A stretch of 64,000 bases of DNA from a virus. Positions 9,971-43,465 of the stretch are shown here, piece by piece; positions within the stretch are counted from its first letter, which is position 1, and the number at the start of each line of letters is the position of its first letter. The DNA lies in IMG/VR virus record IMGVR_UViG_3300046698_000515, positions 1 to 64,000 of that record; one strand, given 5' to 3'. Position numbers and translations under genes: made by a program. The notes beneath the pieces were generated by a model. That model was not told where the DNA came from and did no database searches. It saw only the letters and a list, made by a program, of their open reading frames with translations.

Positions 9971-10708
9971 ATGAAAAACGTTTTTGTTATTCCAGTTCAT
10001 AGTTTTGTTGATTTAATTACAAATAGTTCTTCTGAATTATTTGTTTGTAATGGTAATAAATCTATTGAAGCAATTAAAGAAGTTCTCATACAACTTACTA
10101 AGAATCATAATGAGCTTTCTGAAGATAAAATAAATCTTGATATTTTGTTTACTTCAGTGTTTAAAGAGCCGGAAATTGTAGAATATTCTTTTGATTATTA
10201 TTTGTTTCCTCAAAATCTTCGAGATGAGTATGAAAAATATCATCATGTTCCAGGAGAATATAATTCGTTTTTTCCATATGAAGAAAGACAAGAGTACAAA
10301 GATTTAGAGTTTGCAGAACAGCAAATGGAACTTGAAGTAAATATTCATGAAAAGGATTTATACAAAACAAATAAAATAGAGTATGAACGAAGATGGAATA
10401 TAGTTTTTGAGAAACGTGATGAAATCTGGAAAGAGTGGAACCGAAAAAAATGTGCTTCCGTTTTTGAATTATATAAACATTTTCTTATTAGTAATAATTT
10501 ACCTGAATGGAAAGAAAAAGAATTTAATTTAAACAAATTATATGCAAATAAGAAAGAGTATAATTTCTTTCGCACCTGCTTAAGTTGGGGTATTAGTTGT
10601 AAGAAAGGAGATATCTTTCTTTACTCAGCAATCTATAATACTATTCCATATGAAATGATGGAAGCTATAACAGCATATTTAAATGCTCAAAGATTACATT
10701 TAGGATAA
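9971..10708 (+). CDS. HSFVDLITNSS-motif protein 1
   Basis: 245 residues from ATG 9971, one base after the previous stop. The N-terminus IPVHSFVDLITNSSSELFV is shared almost unchanged with the next two genes. The remainder is long, acidic and aromatic-rich, unlike the other two. This is the first of three adjacent paralogues sitting directly upstream of a radical SAM enzyme, so the motif may be a recognition or modification site. That link is inference. Confidence 0.75.
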   Translation: MKNVFVIPVHSFVDLITNSSSELFVCNGNKSIEAIKEVLIQLTKNHNELSEDKINLDILFTSVFKEPEIVEYSFDYYLFPQNLRDEYEKYHHVPGEYNSFFPYEERQEYKDLEFAEQQMELEVNIHEKDLYKTNKIEYERRWNIVFEKRDEIWKEWNRKKCASVFELYKHFLISNNLPEWKEKEFNLNKLYANKKEYNFFRTCLSWGISCKKGDIFLYSAIYNTIPYEMMEAITAYLNAQRLHLG

Positions 10709-10711
10709 TTT

Positions 10712-11035
10712 ATGACAAAAAAATACATAATAAAAATACACTCGTTCGTTGATTTAATCACGAATTCATCAACTGAAATCTATGTTGCAGCAGGTGAACA
10801 TACCGTTAAAGCTGTAAAGGAGATTATTAACAATATCCTTCTAATTGGAGGTAGTAAACTTATTGCTGACGATTTGTTTGAAATTTCTCTCAGTAATAGT
10901 GATGTTGGTGAATATTCATCAGTGGAATTAAATGTTAAAGCAAAAGATCAAAAATCTCCTGATGCCCTTACAGCAGCTAAACTATTAAGTGACTTAACTG
11001 GCTTATTTTCCATTGAAGCACAATATAATGGCTAA
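10712..11035 (+). CDS. HSFVDLITNSS-motif protein 2
   Basis: 107 residues, 3 bp after paralogue 1. IKIHSFVDLITNSSTEIYV at residues 7-25, then VKAVKEIINNILLIGGSK, which is also found in paralogue 3. The C-terminal third differs. Confidence 0.75.
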   Translation: MTKKYIIKIHSFVDLITNSSTEIYVAAGEHTVKAVKEIINNILLIGGSKLIADDLFEISLSNSDVGEYSSVELNVKAKDQKSPDALTAAKLLSDLTGLFSIEAQYNG

Positions 11036-11038
11036 TTT

Positions 11039-11407
11039 ATGAAACAATATATTATTCCAGTCCATTCGTTTGTTGACCTAATTACTAACTCATCAACAGA
11101 AATCTATGTTTCACCTACAAATAAAACTGTAACTACATTAAAAGAAATAATTAATGAGATTCTTAGAATAGGTGGAAGTAAACAAACTTGTGATGATTTA
11201 GTTAATATCTCTCTTGAACAAGTCTGTGATTGTGCTGAATATCTAGAAGGTGAAGATCTTGAAGAACACAATCCAAAAACATGTGATTGTGCGAAGACAA
11301 ATCTAGTTATAACTGCTAAAGGTGAAGATAAAAAAGAATATAAAAAGTTAATAACAGCACTAAGTAAACTTATCAGTACTATTGAGTATGGTGAAAAAAT
11401 AAATTGA
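11039..11407 (+). CDS. HSFVDLITNSS-motif protein 3, Cys-rich
   Basis: 122 residues, 3 bp after paralogue 2. IPVHSFVDLITNSSTEIYV at residues 5-23, IINEILRIGGSK as in paralogue 2, then two CDCA motifs (VCDCAEY and TCDCAKT) about 26 residues apart. The Cys pairs could bind metal or be modified by the neighbouring radical SAM enzyme (inference). Confidence 0.75.
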   Translation: MKQYIIPVHSFVDLITNSSTEIYVSPTNKTVTTLKEIINEILRIGGSKQTCDDLVNISLEQVCDCAEYLEGEDLEEHNPKTCDCAKTNLVITAKGEDKKEYKKLITALSKLISTIEYGEKIN

Positions 11408-11413
11408 TATTTT

Positions 11414-12271
11414 ATGCGCACTCGTCGAGAAGAATCTGCAAATTATTCCTCTGTATTTATCAATGGCAAAACGCTTAGGTTTTGCATTGATCAAAGTAAA
11501 CCAATTACAGAATTAAAATTTCCGGAATTTTACGATGTGTCGTGCGGCAATAAATGTGAGACTGGAAAATGCTGTTACTGTTATGCTAGTGGAAATCCAA
11601 AAGGAACACATTATAACAATGTTGTTGAAAAAATAAAAACATATTTTGGTAAAATGTCTCTCAATGAGCGACCTTATCAAGTTGCAATTGGTGGTCAACA
11701 AGAGCCTATTGAACATCCAGAATTTGAAAATGTATTAAAAGCTTTTTGTGAATTAGATATTGTTCCAAATATCACTACTAATGGAGTATTAGTTGATCAA
11801 TCTATAGTTGACATCATTAAGAAATACTGTGGTGGTGTTGCAGTCACCCTACATCCACATCTTGAAGAACACTGGCGAAGAGCAATAAACATGTTCGTTC
11901 AAAACAACATTCGAACCAATATTCATATAATCGTATCAAACAATGAAACAATTGAAGCATTGAAGCGGATATACGCAGAGCTTAATGATAAAATTGAGTA
12001 TTATGTGTTGCTTCCGTATAAACCAGTTGGCTATGCTAAAAATAAACCGATTGCGATTGACTATGATAAATTAGAAGAATTTTTAGATTTGAATTTTAAT
12101 AATGCAAATATTGCATTAGGGGCTAACTTCTATGAATTTTTGACTAATAAGAGGAAGTGGAATGTGTCATTATACCCACCTGAAATTATGTCTAAGTATT
12201 TGGTGCTTGATGATAATTTGAGTTTGTATAATAATAGTTTTGACATGAAATTAGTGACAGGAAATATATGA
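11414..12271 (+). CDS. radical SAM protein with variant cysteine motif
   Basis: 285 residues. The N-terminal region PEFYDVSCGNKCETGKCCYC (~residues 35-54) corresponds to the radical SAM cluster motif, but the spacing is C-x4-C-x2-C (or uses the extra Cys of CGNKC) instead of the canonical C-x3-C-x2-C. It is followed by AIGGQQEPIEHPEF (the GGEP-like SAM-binding motif) and a TIM-barrel pattern (NITTNGVL, VAVTLHPHLEEHW, NIRTNIHIIVS). No C-terminal SPASM domain. It follows three HSFVDLITNSS proteins and overlaps the next gene by ATGA. Substrate unknown; processing of those proteins is possible. Confidence 0.8.
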   Translation: MRTRREESANYSSVFINGKTLRFCIDQSKPITELKFPEFYDVSCGNKCETGKCCYCYASGNPKGTHYNNVVEKIKTYFGKMSLNERPYQVAIGGQQEPIEHPEFENVLKAFCELDIVPNITTNGVLVDQSIVDIIKKYCGGVAVTLHPHLEEHWRRAINMFVQNNIRTNIHIIVSNNETIEALKRIYAELNDKIEYYVLLPYKPVGYAKNKPIAIDYDKLEEFLDLNFNNANIALGANFYEFLTNKRKWNVSLYPPEIMSKYLVLDDNLSLYNNSFDMKLVTGNI

Positions 12272-12465
12272 ATTATACACTTAATGTTTGTGATAAAAAT
12301 ATTAAACCAAAACCAGGTTTTGGTAACTGTATTTTATCTCTTGAATTTCAGACTATAAGTCCATTTGAAGTTAAAAGGGTATTTGATACATTTTATCCAA
12401 AACCGAGATATAATGTTGAAATGGTAAAAGTTGATATGTCAAACAGACCATTAAATGGGTGGTAA
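12268..12465 (+). CDS. small protein coupled to radical SAM gene
   Basis: 65 residues, ATGA overlap with the radical SAM gene. Predicted beta-alpha-beta (GNCILSLEFQTISPFEVKRVFDTFY). It might be a small accessory or peptide-binding partner; the sequence alone does not show this. Confidence 0.6.
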   Translation: MNYTLNVCDKNIKPKPGFGNCILSLEFQTISPFEVKRVFDTFYPKPRYNVEMVKVDMSNRPLNGW

Positions 12466-15204: not shown

Positions 15205-15626
15205 TCGTCAGCAGTAAGGTACTTTTGAGCTCCACCTAAATTACCAAGTGCAAGACGAGGATCTTCTTCATGTAAATCATCAAACTCATTAATAGGATGG
15301 TAAGTTTTACGTTTATCATCCCATTTAAAGTTGGCAGAAACAATATAAGCATCTTCTGTAGTTGTTACATCAGGATTATCAATACTGATTTGCATAGTTA
15401 AATTAGGATCATTTTCACATGCAGCTTTTACTACATTACCCATTCTACCAATAATTCTATAGACAACATTTGTTTCGCCTGAATGAGGACCACCTTCGTA
15501 AATTTCTTTAACTTTAATAATAGTAGGAAGTACTGTAGTACCTTCTCCGTATGTTTCCGTTAATAAAATAGAGGGTTTAACATTAACATATGCTTTTGAT
15601 AAACCTTTGATATCACTATTAGTCAT
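15201..15626 (-). CDS. late protein of unknown function
   Basis: 141 residues on the minus strand, preceded by the late motif ATAAATA (15632-15638). The placement of the late promoter suggests a virion or morphogenesis role. Sequence is beta-rich and acidic; no family recognised. Confidence 0.7.
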   Translation of the reverse strand: MTNSDIKGLSKAYVNVKPSILLTETYGEGTTVLPTIIKVKEIYEGGPHSGETNVVYRIIGRMGNVVKAACENDPNLTMQISIDNPDVTTTEDAYIVSANFKWDDKRKTYHPINEFDDLHEEDPRLALGNLGGAQKYLTADD

Positions 15627-15631
15627 GTAAT

Positions 15632-15638
15632 TATTTAT
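15632..15638 (-). promoter_or_regulatory. T4-type late promoter
   Basis: ATAAATA on the minus strand, continued AATTAC to the ATG of the 15626 gene. The same ATAAATAATTA string recurs before other late genes here. Confidence 0.65.
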
Positions 15639-15683
15639 AGAAAGTAGTGGAATTTTACATGATTTAATTTATTATGTTAGTAT

Positions 15684-15923
15684 ATGACATTGAAGAAATT
15701 TATTGAGAAGTATGAATTATCCGATTTTGTTTTAATTGATAAAATTCCTATCAAACATCCTGAAACAGGAGAAAAGATTTATATTGTTTCAAATTGGATG
15801 AGTGGATTTTGGTATAGGAAATTACCAAGCCAGAAAGAAGGACAAATGTGGCCTGTTCAATATCCTGGTGATTTGAATGACTTAGAAGTGCATAAGGATG
15901 CAAAGAAGGAATTAGAATTATGA
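15684..15923 (+). CDS. hypothetical protein
   Basis: 79 residues, with WMSGFWYRKLPSQKEGQMWP in the centre. Coupled to the next small gene by ATGA. Not recognised. Confidence 0.65.
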   Translation: MTLKKFIEKYELSDFVLIDKIPIKHPETGEKIYIVSNWMSGFWYRKLPSQKEGQMWPVQYPGDLNDLEVHKDAKKELEL

Positions 15924-16027
15924 ATGAATGTAAAGATGGAATTTATCAAGTTACAACTTGTAACGAGAGTACAGATTGGGAAACTGGCGTACTAGATGAT
16001 TTAAAACTTATTCCTTTTACATTATGA
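15920..16027 (+). CDS. very small protein
   Basis: 35 residues (MNECKDGIYQVTTCNESTDW...). ATGA overlaps at both ends support translation despite the short length. Confidence 0.55.
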   Translation: MNECKDGIYQVTTCNESTDWETGVLDDLKLIPFTL

Positions 16028-16461
16028 ACTTTCACTCAGGCTATATTACAAAGAATCAAAAAAACGGAAAAACTATTTTTACTTTTGGAAGTAATTTAAG
16101 CGGAATTCATGGTAAAGGTTCTGCTTTAACAGCTAGAAAGCATTGGGGAGCTATATATGGTAGAGGTTCAGGTCATCAGGGACATTCTTATGCAATACCA
16201 ACTAAAGATCAAAAATTAAAAACATTACCTTTAAAGGATATACAGTACTATGTTGAACAGTTTATTGAACTTGCAACTACTAATCCTGATTTAAAATATC
16301 TAGTAGTAAGAATCGGTTGTATGCTTGCAGGATATAAAGATGAACAAATTGCTCCAATGTTTAAAGATGCTTCAGATAATGTTTATTTACCACCTGAATG
16401 GAAGCCTTATCTTCAACCTGAAAAAGTAGGCATAAACTTAATGTCTGATTTAATAGGTTAA
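16024..16461 (+). CDS. conserved phage protein (FGSNLSGIHGKG family)
   Basis: 145 residues. FTFGSNLSGIHGKGSAL then GAIYGRGSGHQGHSYAIPT is a signature of a widespread phage family of unknown function. The glycine-rich loops and the LKYLVVRIGCMLAGY strand recall macro-domain (ADP-ribose-binding) folds; I treat this as a structural guess. Confidence 0.75.
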   Translation: MNFHSGYITKNQKNGKTIFTFGSNLSGIHGKGSALTARKHWGAIYGRGSGHQGHSYAIPTKDQKLKTLPLKDIQYYVEQFIELATTNPDLKYLVVRIGCMLAGYKDEQIAPMFKDASDNVYLPPEWKPYLQPEKVGINLMSDLIG

Positions 16462-17150
16462 TCACCTATTCGAATTCGATTGTGGAATTGAGCAGGAAGT
16501 TCTTTACCTGTTTTAGCTGCTCTTAATTTTTGATCTGCAGATCCATGTAAACCTTTTTTAATTTCAGGACTTGTATGTTGCATTCTTAATAATTTTTGAT
16601 CTACATGAGGGTGTGCTTCATAAGGAATACCCATAAAATCCCAATATGAAAAAAGAATTTTTTGATGTTCAATAAATTCAAATTTATATTGTTGAATATT
16701 TTGACCTAATGATTTAAATAATTCATGCAATTGTTTTGAATAACTTTGAACTGTACTCTGAGTATTCCAAAATGAAATTGTTTTAGAGTCAATCCACAAT
16801 CTACCACTTACATCAAAAAAATCATCACGTAAAATTTCAGGTTCTATTTCAATTTGTTTTGAGTTAACAACAGACCACGGACAATTTCTAATTCTACTAA
16901 ATAATATTTCTTTATTTGCCTCATAATCGCCTATTATTGTTACCCTTAATTTTTTAAGATTGTTTTTGTTTAAAGAATTTTGACGTGTTGTGAGATACAA
17001 ATCATTATACATATCAACATGTCTACCAATTTTTTGCCAAAAAGACAGGCCTTTAATTATTCCTATAGTTATAGCATGAATGCTTTTATAAACTTGCCCG
17101 TTTACTGCATCAGGAGATTCTTTAAGAAAATATTGTTTAAATGATAGCAT
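16458..17150 (-). CDS. late protein with capsid-targeting-like tag
   Basis: 230 residues. The N-terminus LSFKQYFLKESPD fits the T4 internal-protein tag pattern: a short amphipathic stretch ending in LxE, the prohead protease cleavage site. A late promoter lies directly upstream (17158-17164). The rest is unknown. Predicted to be packaged in the head and trimmed after residue ~11 (inference). Confidence 0.7.
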   Translation of the reverse strand: MLSFKQYFLKESPDAVNGQVYKSIHAITIGIIKGLSFWQKIGRHVDMYNDLYLTTRQNSLNKNNLKKLRVTIIGDYEANKEILFSRIRNCPWSVVNSKQIEIEPEILRDDFFDVSGRLWIDSKTISFWNTQSTVQSYSKQLHELFKSLGQNIQQYKFEFIEHQKILFSYWDFMGIPYEAHPHVDQKLLRMQHTSPEIKKGLHGSADQKLRAAKTGKELPAQFHNRIRIGD

Positions 17151-32943: not shown

Positions 32944-33017
32944 AAGGATTATGGTGCAATGGTCAGACACAGCGGCTCCCAAGTCGCTTGTCCAAGTTCG
33001 AGTCTTGGTAATTTTTG
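32944..33017 (+). tRNA. tRNA-Gly(CCC)
   Basis: Acceptor AAGGATT/AATTTTT (two G-U pairs), D arm with GG, anticodon helix AGCGGC/GTCGCT around TCCCAA, T arm CCAAG-TTCGAGT-CTTGG. The loop is one base short, otherwise Gly-like. Confidence 0.6.
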
Positions 33018-33038
33018 CTAACTACGGATTTTATTTTT

Positions 33039-42290: not shown

Positions 42291-42581
42291 ATGATTGCAT
42301 ATATAATACCTTCTTACTGTCTTTTAATTATAACAATTGTTTTAATTTTATTGTTACATTATTTTAGACAGCCTGGTAAAGGTGGAATAATAGGCCATAA
42401 AATTAGATGCTCTGATTATCATGCATGGGATGATGCAGTTGCTTATAGGAAAAGAGAACTTCAAGAATTATTAAATGCAAAACCAAATACTAGAGGGATA
42501 AAATTTCAAGAATGGTTACATAATTATAATACTTTAAAACGTGAACTTGTAGAAATAATAGCATTAGAGCCAAAAATATGA
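42291..42581 (+). CDS. membrane-anchored hypothetical protein
   Basis: 96 residues. One N-terminal membrane helix (YIIPSYCLLIITIVLILLLH) and a charged cytoplasmic helical domain. Coupled to the next gene by ATGA. Confidence 0.65.
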   Translation: MIAYIIPSYCLLIITIVLILLLHYFRQPGKGGIIGHKIRCSDYHAWDDAVAYRKRELQELLNAKPNTRGIKFQEWLHNYNTLKRELVEIIALEPKI

Positions 42582-43465
42582 GCTTACATAAGTCTTCTAA
42601 AAAAATAAAATATTTTTGTAATATTTGTAAAAAACCTTTCTTTTTAAAGAAAAAAATTAGTCATATTCCAAAATGTCAAAAATGTCTAAAAAAATATGCA
42701 ATTGAACGGTATAAAAAAGCGCAATATCATAGATTACCCAGATATAAAGAAAAATTTTTTGGTTATAGATTAAAGCATTCTTATAATATAACAAAAACAG
42801 ATTATGATCAAAAATTGCAACAGCAAAACGGCGTTTGTTGTATTTGTAAAAAACCTGATCCACGTACTCGCTTATCTGTAGATCATGATCATCAAACAAA
42901 TGAAATTAGAGGATTATTATGTCATAGTTGTAATCGTGTATTAGGTGTATTAAAGGATGATGTAAATCTATTTCGGTCTTGCTGGTCATATTTAATGCAA
43001 TTTACTCCAAGAAGAAGTTGGGATGATTATTTTTTAGATATTGCTGAATTAGTTGCATTACGTTCAAAAGATCCATCTACAAAAGTAGGTGCTGTAATTG
43101 TAAGAGATAAAATTATATGTTCTACTGGATATAATGGATTTCCTCGTAAAGTAAATGATAATATTCAAACTCGGTATAATAAACCAGAAAAATATTTATG
43201 GACAATTCATGCAGAAGAAAACGCAATTTTTAATGCTGCAAGAGCAGGTAATAAGATAGAAGATGCAGTATTATATGTTACTCCTTTATCACCTTGTTCA
43301 TCTTGTGCACTTTCTATATCTCAAGCAGGTATTAAAGAAGTAGTATATAGAAAAAATAAAGTTACACCACAATTTGAAGAAAGTTGTCAAAAAGCTTTTG
43401 AAATTTTTAATGCTTGTAAAGTACTTGTTAGACCATCAGAATTAGATGACATTAGGGATCAATAG
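42578..43465 (+). CDS. endonuclease VII-dCMP deaminase fusion
   Basis: 295 residues with two domains in one frame. Residues ~1-145: zinc-ribbon part (CNICKKPF, CQKC) and a recombination endonuclease VII HNH core (CCICKKPDPRTRLSVDHDHQ, GLLCHSCNRVLGVLKDD). Residues ~147-290: deoxycytidylate deaminase, with the zinc motifs HAEENAIFNAARAG and PCSSCALSISQAG. Deaminase makes dUMP for dTTP synthesis. EndoVII-type proteins cut branched DNA in T4 (gp49) or act as mobile endonucleases. Fusion of the two suggests in-frame invasion of the deaminase gene by a mobile EndoVII gene. Confidence 0.9.
   Translation: MSLHKSSKKIKYFCNICKKPFFLKKKISHIPKCQKCLKKYAIERYKKAQYHRLPRYKEKFFGYRLKHSYNITKTDYDQKLQQQNGVCCICKKPDPRTRLSVDHDHQTNEIRGLLCHSCNRVLGVLKDDVNLFRSCWSYLMQFTPRRSWDDYFLDIAELVALRSKDPSTKVGAVIVRDKIICSTGYNGFPRKVNDNIQTRYNKPEKYLWTIHAEENAIFNAARAGNKIEDAVLYVTPLSPCSSCALSISQAGIKEVVYRKNKVTPQFEESCQKAFEIFNACKVLVRPSELDDIRDQ

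Follow-up and report, generated by a model that had tools for sequence, protein, structure and literature searches.

Radical S-adenosylmethionine (SAM) enzymes of the type found with ribosomally synthesised and post-translationally modified peptides (RiPPs), including SuiB, CteB and the peptide maturases of NCBIfam, are encoded beside precursor genes that share a conserved segment, the precursors being short and composed of a leader and a variable core. SuiB and CteB act on peptides. Anaerobic sulfatase-maturating enzymes (anSMEs) are radical SAM/SPASM enzymes that modify Ser or Cys at C/S-x-P/A-x-R inside sulfatases. We describe here a locus in 64,000 nucleotides of viral DNA (the window), which covers part of the 73,565-bp record IMGVR_UViG_3300046698_000515. 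Three adjacent genes, whose products share the N-terminal block HSFVDLITNSS (motif proteins), are followed by the gene for a radical SAM enzyme (rSAM). We propose, with a probability of about 0.7, that this rSAM is a maturase that acts in trans on several small proteins and modifies their N-terminal [ST]NSS tail. We infer all three parts of this proposal, namely the link from enzyme to substrate, the tail as the modified part and a host-directed effector role of the products. No description of the system was found in the literature (figures and closed journals were outside the scope), and FVSNSSS, FVTNSSS and ITNSSSE led to no relevant paper in the open literature; it looks like an undescribed protein-maturation system.

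As in the RiPP systems, a dedicated rSAM adjoins several small paralogous genes with a conserved segment, and SuiB and CteB are, together with Tes, the solved structures nearest by sequence. Unlike RiPP precursors, the motif proteins are mostly 80–300 residues long (245, 107 and 122 in the window), have a folded domain in the class B model described below and carry the conserved tail, their most conserved part, at the N-terminus. The phage enzymes that accompany HSFVDLITNSS-like motifs (HS-type) also lack SPASM, and no NCBIfam peptide-maturase cut-off was reached. The anSMEs are similar in that an rSAM/SPASM enzyme modifies Ser or Cys of a larger protein, and the bacterial relatives of the window rSAM have SPASM too; the target here would however be an N-terminal T-N-S-S, no sulfatase is encoded nearby, and the conserved core T-N-S-S-S/T-E has no P or R. 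A sequence-only reading of the window had taken the motif proteins and the rSAM for precursors and their modifying enzyme. The pairing is strongly supported, by two-way gene association, matched subtypes and fusion, whereas the N-terminus is probably the target and not a leader, and a 65-residue open reading frame (ORF) is excluded.

Association of motif proteins with the radical SAM enzyme

Motif genes accompany this type of rSAM far above controls in both directions of the neighbourhood analysis that the sequence-only reading had suggested. From motif to enzyme, a DNA pattern for the motif matched 36 viral contigs. The matches L016–L018 were outside the motif profile, on contigs without rSAM, and were taken as chance; 30 of the remaining 33 contigs encode the rSAM. 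From enzyme to motif, an rSAM profile gave 61 phage loci (L076–L136, some being near-duplicates of one virus), including 32 on contigs outside the motif scan, and a profile search found motif proteins within 5 kb in all 32, with divergent motifs at L130 and L132. The only rSAM locus without a nearby motif protein (L109) has three elsewhere on its contig (L007, L009). A strict N-terminal regular expression matched at 59 of the 61 phage loci and 25 of 25 distant loci (see below), against 2 of 150 control loci, both control matches being in unconvincing frames. When neighbouring genes of 57 phage loci were clustered, only two families proved conserved: the rSAM, present at 57/57 loci, and the motif proteins, present at 56/57; the next-commonest family occurred in five. 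All 135 copies of the motif genes share the strand of the rSAM. The opposite situation, motif and rSAM occurring widely apart, was looked for and not found.

A 52-kb contig (IMGVR_UViG_3300037184_000106) has five tandem motif genes at L041:5346-7508, and no rSAM was found on it. A second contig from the same metagenome (L086) begins with an rSAM and a class B gene.

Enzyme and motif also match in subtype. HS motifs occur only with A4-type rSAMs and MKIR motifs only with A9-type rSAMs (63 and 35 ORFs, zero crossing). Among 13 loci with rSAMs from control contigs the motif was found in L480 only, as the N-terminus of the rSAM itself. Such motif-rSAM fusions are encoded at L168:3584-4909 (Methylobacterium plasmid, ATNSSSSHSIV) and L480:4374-5789 (398 kb jumbo phage contig, ACNSSSVHSVV), and score 91–112 bits with the NSS-rSAM profile, other rSAMs being below 35.

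The fusions would fit equally if the motif proteins were partner or adaptor subunits, docking on the rSAM by their tail and guiding it to varied nucleic acid or protein targets. A docking motif is expected to be conserved, as the tail is, and the bodies are diverse, that of class B being ferredoxin-like, a common scaffold of binding proteins. Yet one rSAM stands alongside 1–7 motif paralogues, the motif genes of phages RB16 and RB43 lie 19–24 kb away from the rSAM, and the strictest part of the tail is the small polar T-N-S-S-S/T core, which is odd for docking. We consider adaptor subunits unlikely, and less likely than modification of the tail.

The wider family in bacteria, archaea and large phages

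Motif and rSAM are also paired outside the HS-type phages. An N-terminal motif variant was present in 25 of 25 distant loci, 21 of them bacterial or archaeal (rSAM identity of 27–35%) and four from prophages or phages (L137–L140). The variants are mostly MKI[KR]xDFVSNSSSTSF or DGFVTNSSSSS, and the gene is usually immediately upstream of the rSAM. Bacterial chromosomes, plasmids and metagenome-assembled genomes of Asgard archaea have the motif beside the rSAM as well. Capsid-targeting sequences are shared N-termini on diverse proteins, for example the T4 internal head proteins, and the common N-terminus of the otherwise diverse motif proteins recalls them. A shared targeting or processing signal next to which the rSAM merely happens to lie is nevertheless very improbable, given its occurrence beside the rSAM in cellular genomes, its tie to one rSAM family and the matched subtypes; a capsid-targeting tag was rejected as a poor fit.

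The pattern MKIRx[GDE]FVxNSS was found in at least 120 stretches in viral contigs, with up to eight copies within one 4.4 kb stretch. The rSAM profile A9 matched 36 of 50 MKIR-motif contigs and 1 of 50 contigs selected by a recA pattern, which are somewhat shorter and differ in taxonomy (Fisher p ~3e-14; ~8e-12 without nine contigs counted as contributing to the profile). This recA control was added because a random 15-mer control had yielded mostly short contigs, and in its sole A9-positive contig motif and rSAM form one fused protein. In 27 of the 36 contigs the rSAM and a motif gene are no more than 5 kb apart, as compared with 4.5 expected by random placement. The generic profile PF04055 (32/50 MKIR contigs, 13/50 controls) is a poor proxy because it misses weak-scoring NSS-type rSAMs and counts unrelated ones, and the family-specific A9 profile was used for this reason; RB16's own rSAM is detected by A9 only.

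In the PHROG database, phrog_7293 (“unknown function”) represents the A9-type rSAM (2e-271 with RB16, 9e-83 with L448), and phrog_7397 (“unknown function”, MKIR..NSS proteins) matches the NSS tail. The two families are not linked there. The window motif proteins match neither, and the window rSAM matches phrog_7293 weakly (5e-10).

In bacteria and plasmids, the NSS-tail protein and an A9-type rSAM with SPASM are the final two genes of a four-gene cassette, after a SMEK-domain STAND-like nucleoside triphosphatase (NTPase) and a 121-residue protein (L166, Agrobacterium plasmid pAt15955, 2586-7038; L145, 4591-9032). The NTPase and the extra small protein are missing from the phage loci. In PADLOC the cassette resembles Avs2 and proteins associated with Argonaute, which suggests that it may serve in defence. 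We tentatively consider a cross-domain maturation system: a dedicated family of rSAMs might modify an N-terminal [ST]NSS tail on many unrelated small proteins. Large phages have up to eight such proteins in a row, others are in the SMEK-STAND cassettes (maybe for defence), and phage and host sides would both use the same modified tail.

Features of the radical SAM enzyme

Across the 73.6 kb record, PF04055 matches the window rSAM and no other protein (34.1 bits, cut-off 29.5), which confirms that an rSAM gene follows the motif genes. The spacing C-x4-C-x2-C read from the sequence is confirmed (Cys48/53/56) and characterises a subclade, most relatives having CxxxCxxC. The three cluster cysteines are invariant in 22 rSAM sequences. 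Within the subclade, the one-residue insertion in the Cys loop is paired with a second one that turns GGGEP into GGQQEP or GGEQEP (30 relatives). No NCBIfam family attained its curated cut-off with the window rSAM, nor did any equivalog-level NCBIfam family with the wider members tested, and no RiPP recognition element (RRE) was found on the window rSAM by Pfam or NCBIfam scans, which often miss this domain.

Bacterial and archaeal members carry a SPASM domain (PF13186), whereas the HS-type phage rSAMs end where it would start, bacterial HPCSF corresponding to Y.SSF or YNNSF. The window rSAM terminates at YNNSF, and its bacterial relatives have there HPCSF plus CxxC..C..GCP. The correspondence indicates that the auxiliary-cluster Cys is replaced by Ser or Asn in HS-type phage rSAMs. 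Because the SPASM region is lost in these enzymes, a redox-neutral change such as epimerisation is conceivable for them, whereas oxidation or cross-linking could be catalysed by the SPASM members; both suggestions are speculation.

At L075:799-2215 (IMGVR_UViG_3300031999_000135, 15298-16714) the rSAM is broken at the third cluster Cys by an apparent split intein, the first ORF ending ..CPY/CFTENTAI.. and the next starting MKIKK..ILVHN/CYQDS.

Motif proteins and the conserved tail

Motif proteins belong mainly to two classes. Class A comprises genes 2 and 3 of the window and has YNG or YDG as a frequent C-terminus. Class B, with gene 1, has DN.IPY or ENP.W and a terminal R.HLG; N, H and G are invariant in 32 proteins. 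A third, minor class ends in ERGGLHP..HYD. The three window proteins had been said to diverge after the shared block. This applies to gene 1, which is of the other class, but genes 2 and 3 resemble each other over their whole length, at ~50–55% of aligned columns.

The best conserved part is the core of the tail, with I at 95%, T at 93%, N at 97%, S at 98%, S at 98% and then S/T at 97% in 123 unique motif proteins from loci located by rSAM alone. In the window, the 11-residue block is confirmed to be identical in the three adjacent ORFs, and it has no other copy in the window or in the 73.6 kb record. Its DNA differs at 7–11 of 33 bases with zero amino-acid changes, including switches of Ser codons between AGT and TCN, and these silent differences argue that the block is kept by selection at the protein level.

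In the AlphaFold model of a class B protein (predicted local distance difference test, pLDDT, 89.8) a ferredoxin-like domain starts at residue 22, and the motif before it is an extended tail of lower confidence. In the model of class A (motif protein 2 of the window) residues 1–23 are mostly below pLDDT 50 and the helix-strand-strand-helix body is good. Foldseek gave nothing below E 0.001 against the PDB for either model, and the best VIA-align Z of 6.9 reflects likeness only as a common ferredoxin-like arrangement, without ruling out any family. The body of an RB43 NSS-tail protein (L230:373-837) matches phrog_132, annotated as head-tail adaptor (3e-10); should this annotation be right, at least one NSS-tail protein would be linked to the virion.

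DN.IP and R.HLG, close to the C-terminus of class B, could build a site together with the tail, and the rSAM is weakly like prokaryotic viperins (28–48 bits). The rSAM and motif proteins might accordingly be enzymes of a joint small-molecule or nucleotide pathway, with a TNSS loop in the active site. This is improbable, as the tail is predicted to be extended and outside the class B fold, the same tail precedes very dissimilar bodies, and viperin scores are far under the NCBIfam cut-off. Assignment of the rSAM to viperin (pVip) was rejected (NCBIfam 20.4 bits, cut-off 180; PADLOC pVip 28.3 bits).

Proposed maturation of the tail

In the proposed maturation, a motif protein would consist of a small domain (ferredoxin-like in the better, class B model) behind a conserved stretch whose core reads [ST]-N-S-S-[ST]. 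The rSAM, from the gene immediately downstream, would recognise the tail on all paralogues and modify it, most probably inside the T-N-S-S-S/T core, a single enzyme serving several substrates, and the products would be phage effectors acting on the host. Several paralogues per enzyme, the strongest conservation in a tail that precedes the fold, matched subtypes and fusion all fit a tail-modifying enzyme. Since a folded domain comes after the conserved N-terminus, this stretch probably serves as the target, or as target and recognition site together, and not as the leader of a variable core. A role as effectors against the host is suggested by the phage motif proteins being small, multicopy and variable.

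Several points weigh against this proposal. Genomic association alone would be expected to look the same for a substrate and for a partner subunit. No rSAM was detected on three HS-motif contigs (G016, 140 kb, with one copy; G032, 52 kb, with five; and one 5 kb fragment), and 14 of the 50 MKIR contigs are without an A9 rSAM, though the majority of contigs may be fragmentary. For class A the model is of mediocre quality (mean pLDDT 73; predicted template modelling score, pTM, 0.63), and the low confidence of the tail may partly stem from a lack of covariation in near-invariant columns.

Organization of the locus and other features of the window

The features of the locus are listed in Table 1. 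The three motif ORFs are separated by 3 and 3 nt, and the last is 6 nt ahead of the rSAM. Motif protein 1 has no noteworthy Pfam or PHROG match. The small protein that had been thought to be coupled to the rSAM, the 65-residue ORF at 12268-12465, shares 4 nt with the rSAM gene and is not conserved among relatives. This ORF and an HNH gene downstream of the rSAM were rejected as members of the system, neither being a conserved neighbour.

Table 1. Features of the motif-rSAM locus (positions in the window).
Feature	Position	Strand	Basis
Motif protein 1, class B, 245 residues, C-terminus ..NTIPY..QRLHLG	9971..10708	+	ORF; aligned with 31 class B proteins from other phages
HSFVDLITNSS copy 1	9998..10030	+	
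Motif protein 2, class A, 107 residues, C-terminus ..EAQYNG	10712..11035	+	ORF, class A alignment, AlphaFold model
HSFVDLITNSS copy 2	10739..10771	+	
Motif protein 3, class A, 122 residues	11039..11407	+	ORF, class A alignment
HSFVDLITNSS copy 3	11063..11095	+	
rSAM enzyme, 285 residues, without SPASM domain	11414..12271	+	Pfam PF04055 above cut-off, alignments A4 and A8
Codons for C48-x4-C53-x2-C56, cluster loop with one-residue insertion	11555..11581	+	Alignment with 30 relatives
Codons for GGQQEP, variant of GGGEP motif, insertion in same subclade	11690..11707	+	Alignment

Elsewhere in the window, a single ORF (42578-43465) combines an endonuclease VII part (residues 6–143) with a dCMP deaminase part (residues 138–286), and a tRNA-like gene with the four-base anticodon ccca (32944-33018) is one of ten predicted tRNAs.

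Annotated phages and significance

No annotated phage was matched in tblastn searches with the window class A protein, the class B protein of L128 and two L217 proteins. The annotated phage collection has 174 records with an RB43/RB16 motif protein and likewise 174 with the RB16 rSAM; the two sets span nearly identical genera and include the E. coli phages RB16, RB43 and Lw1. The MKIRSGFVSNSSSSSF proteins are the NSS-tail motif proteins of phages Lw1, RB43 and RB16. Since these phages carry the system and grow on laboratory E. coli, a direct test is simple.

Large phages frequently encode uncharacterised proteins that start with MKIRxGFVSNSSSSSF or xHSFVDxITNSS. Their link to one rSAM family brings a great many hypothetical proteins under a shared biochemical hypothesis and, if true, would mean a new protein modification for phage biology.
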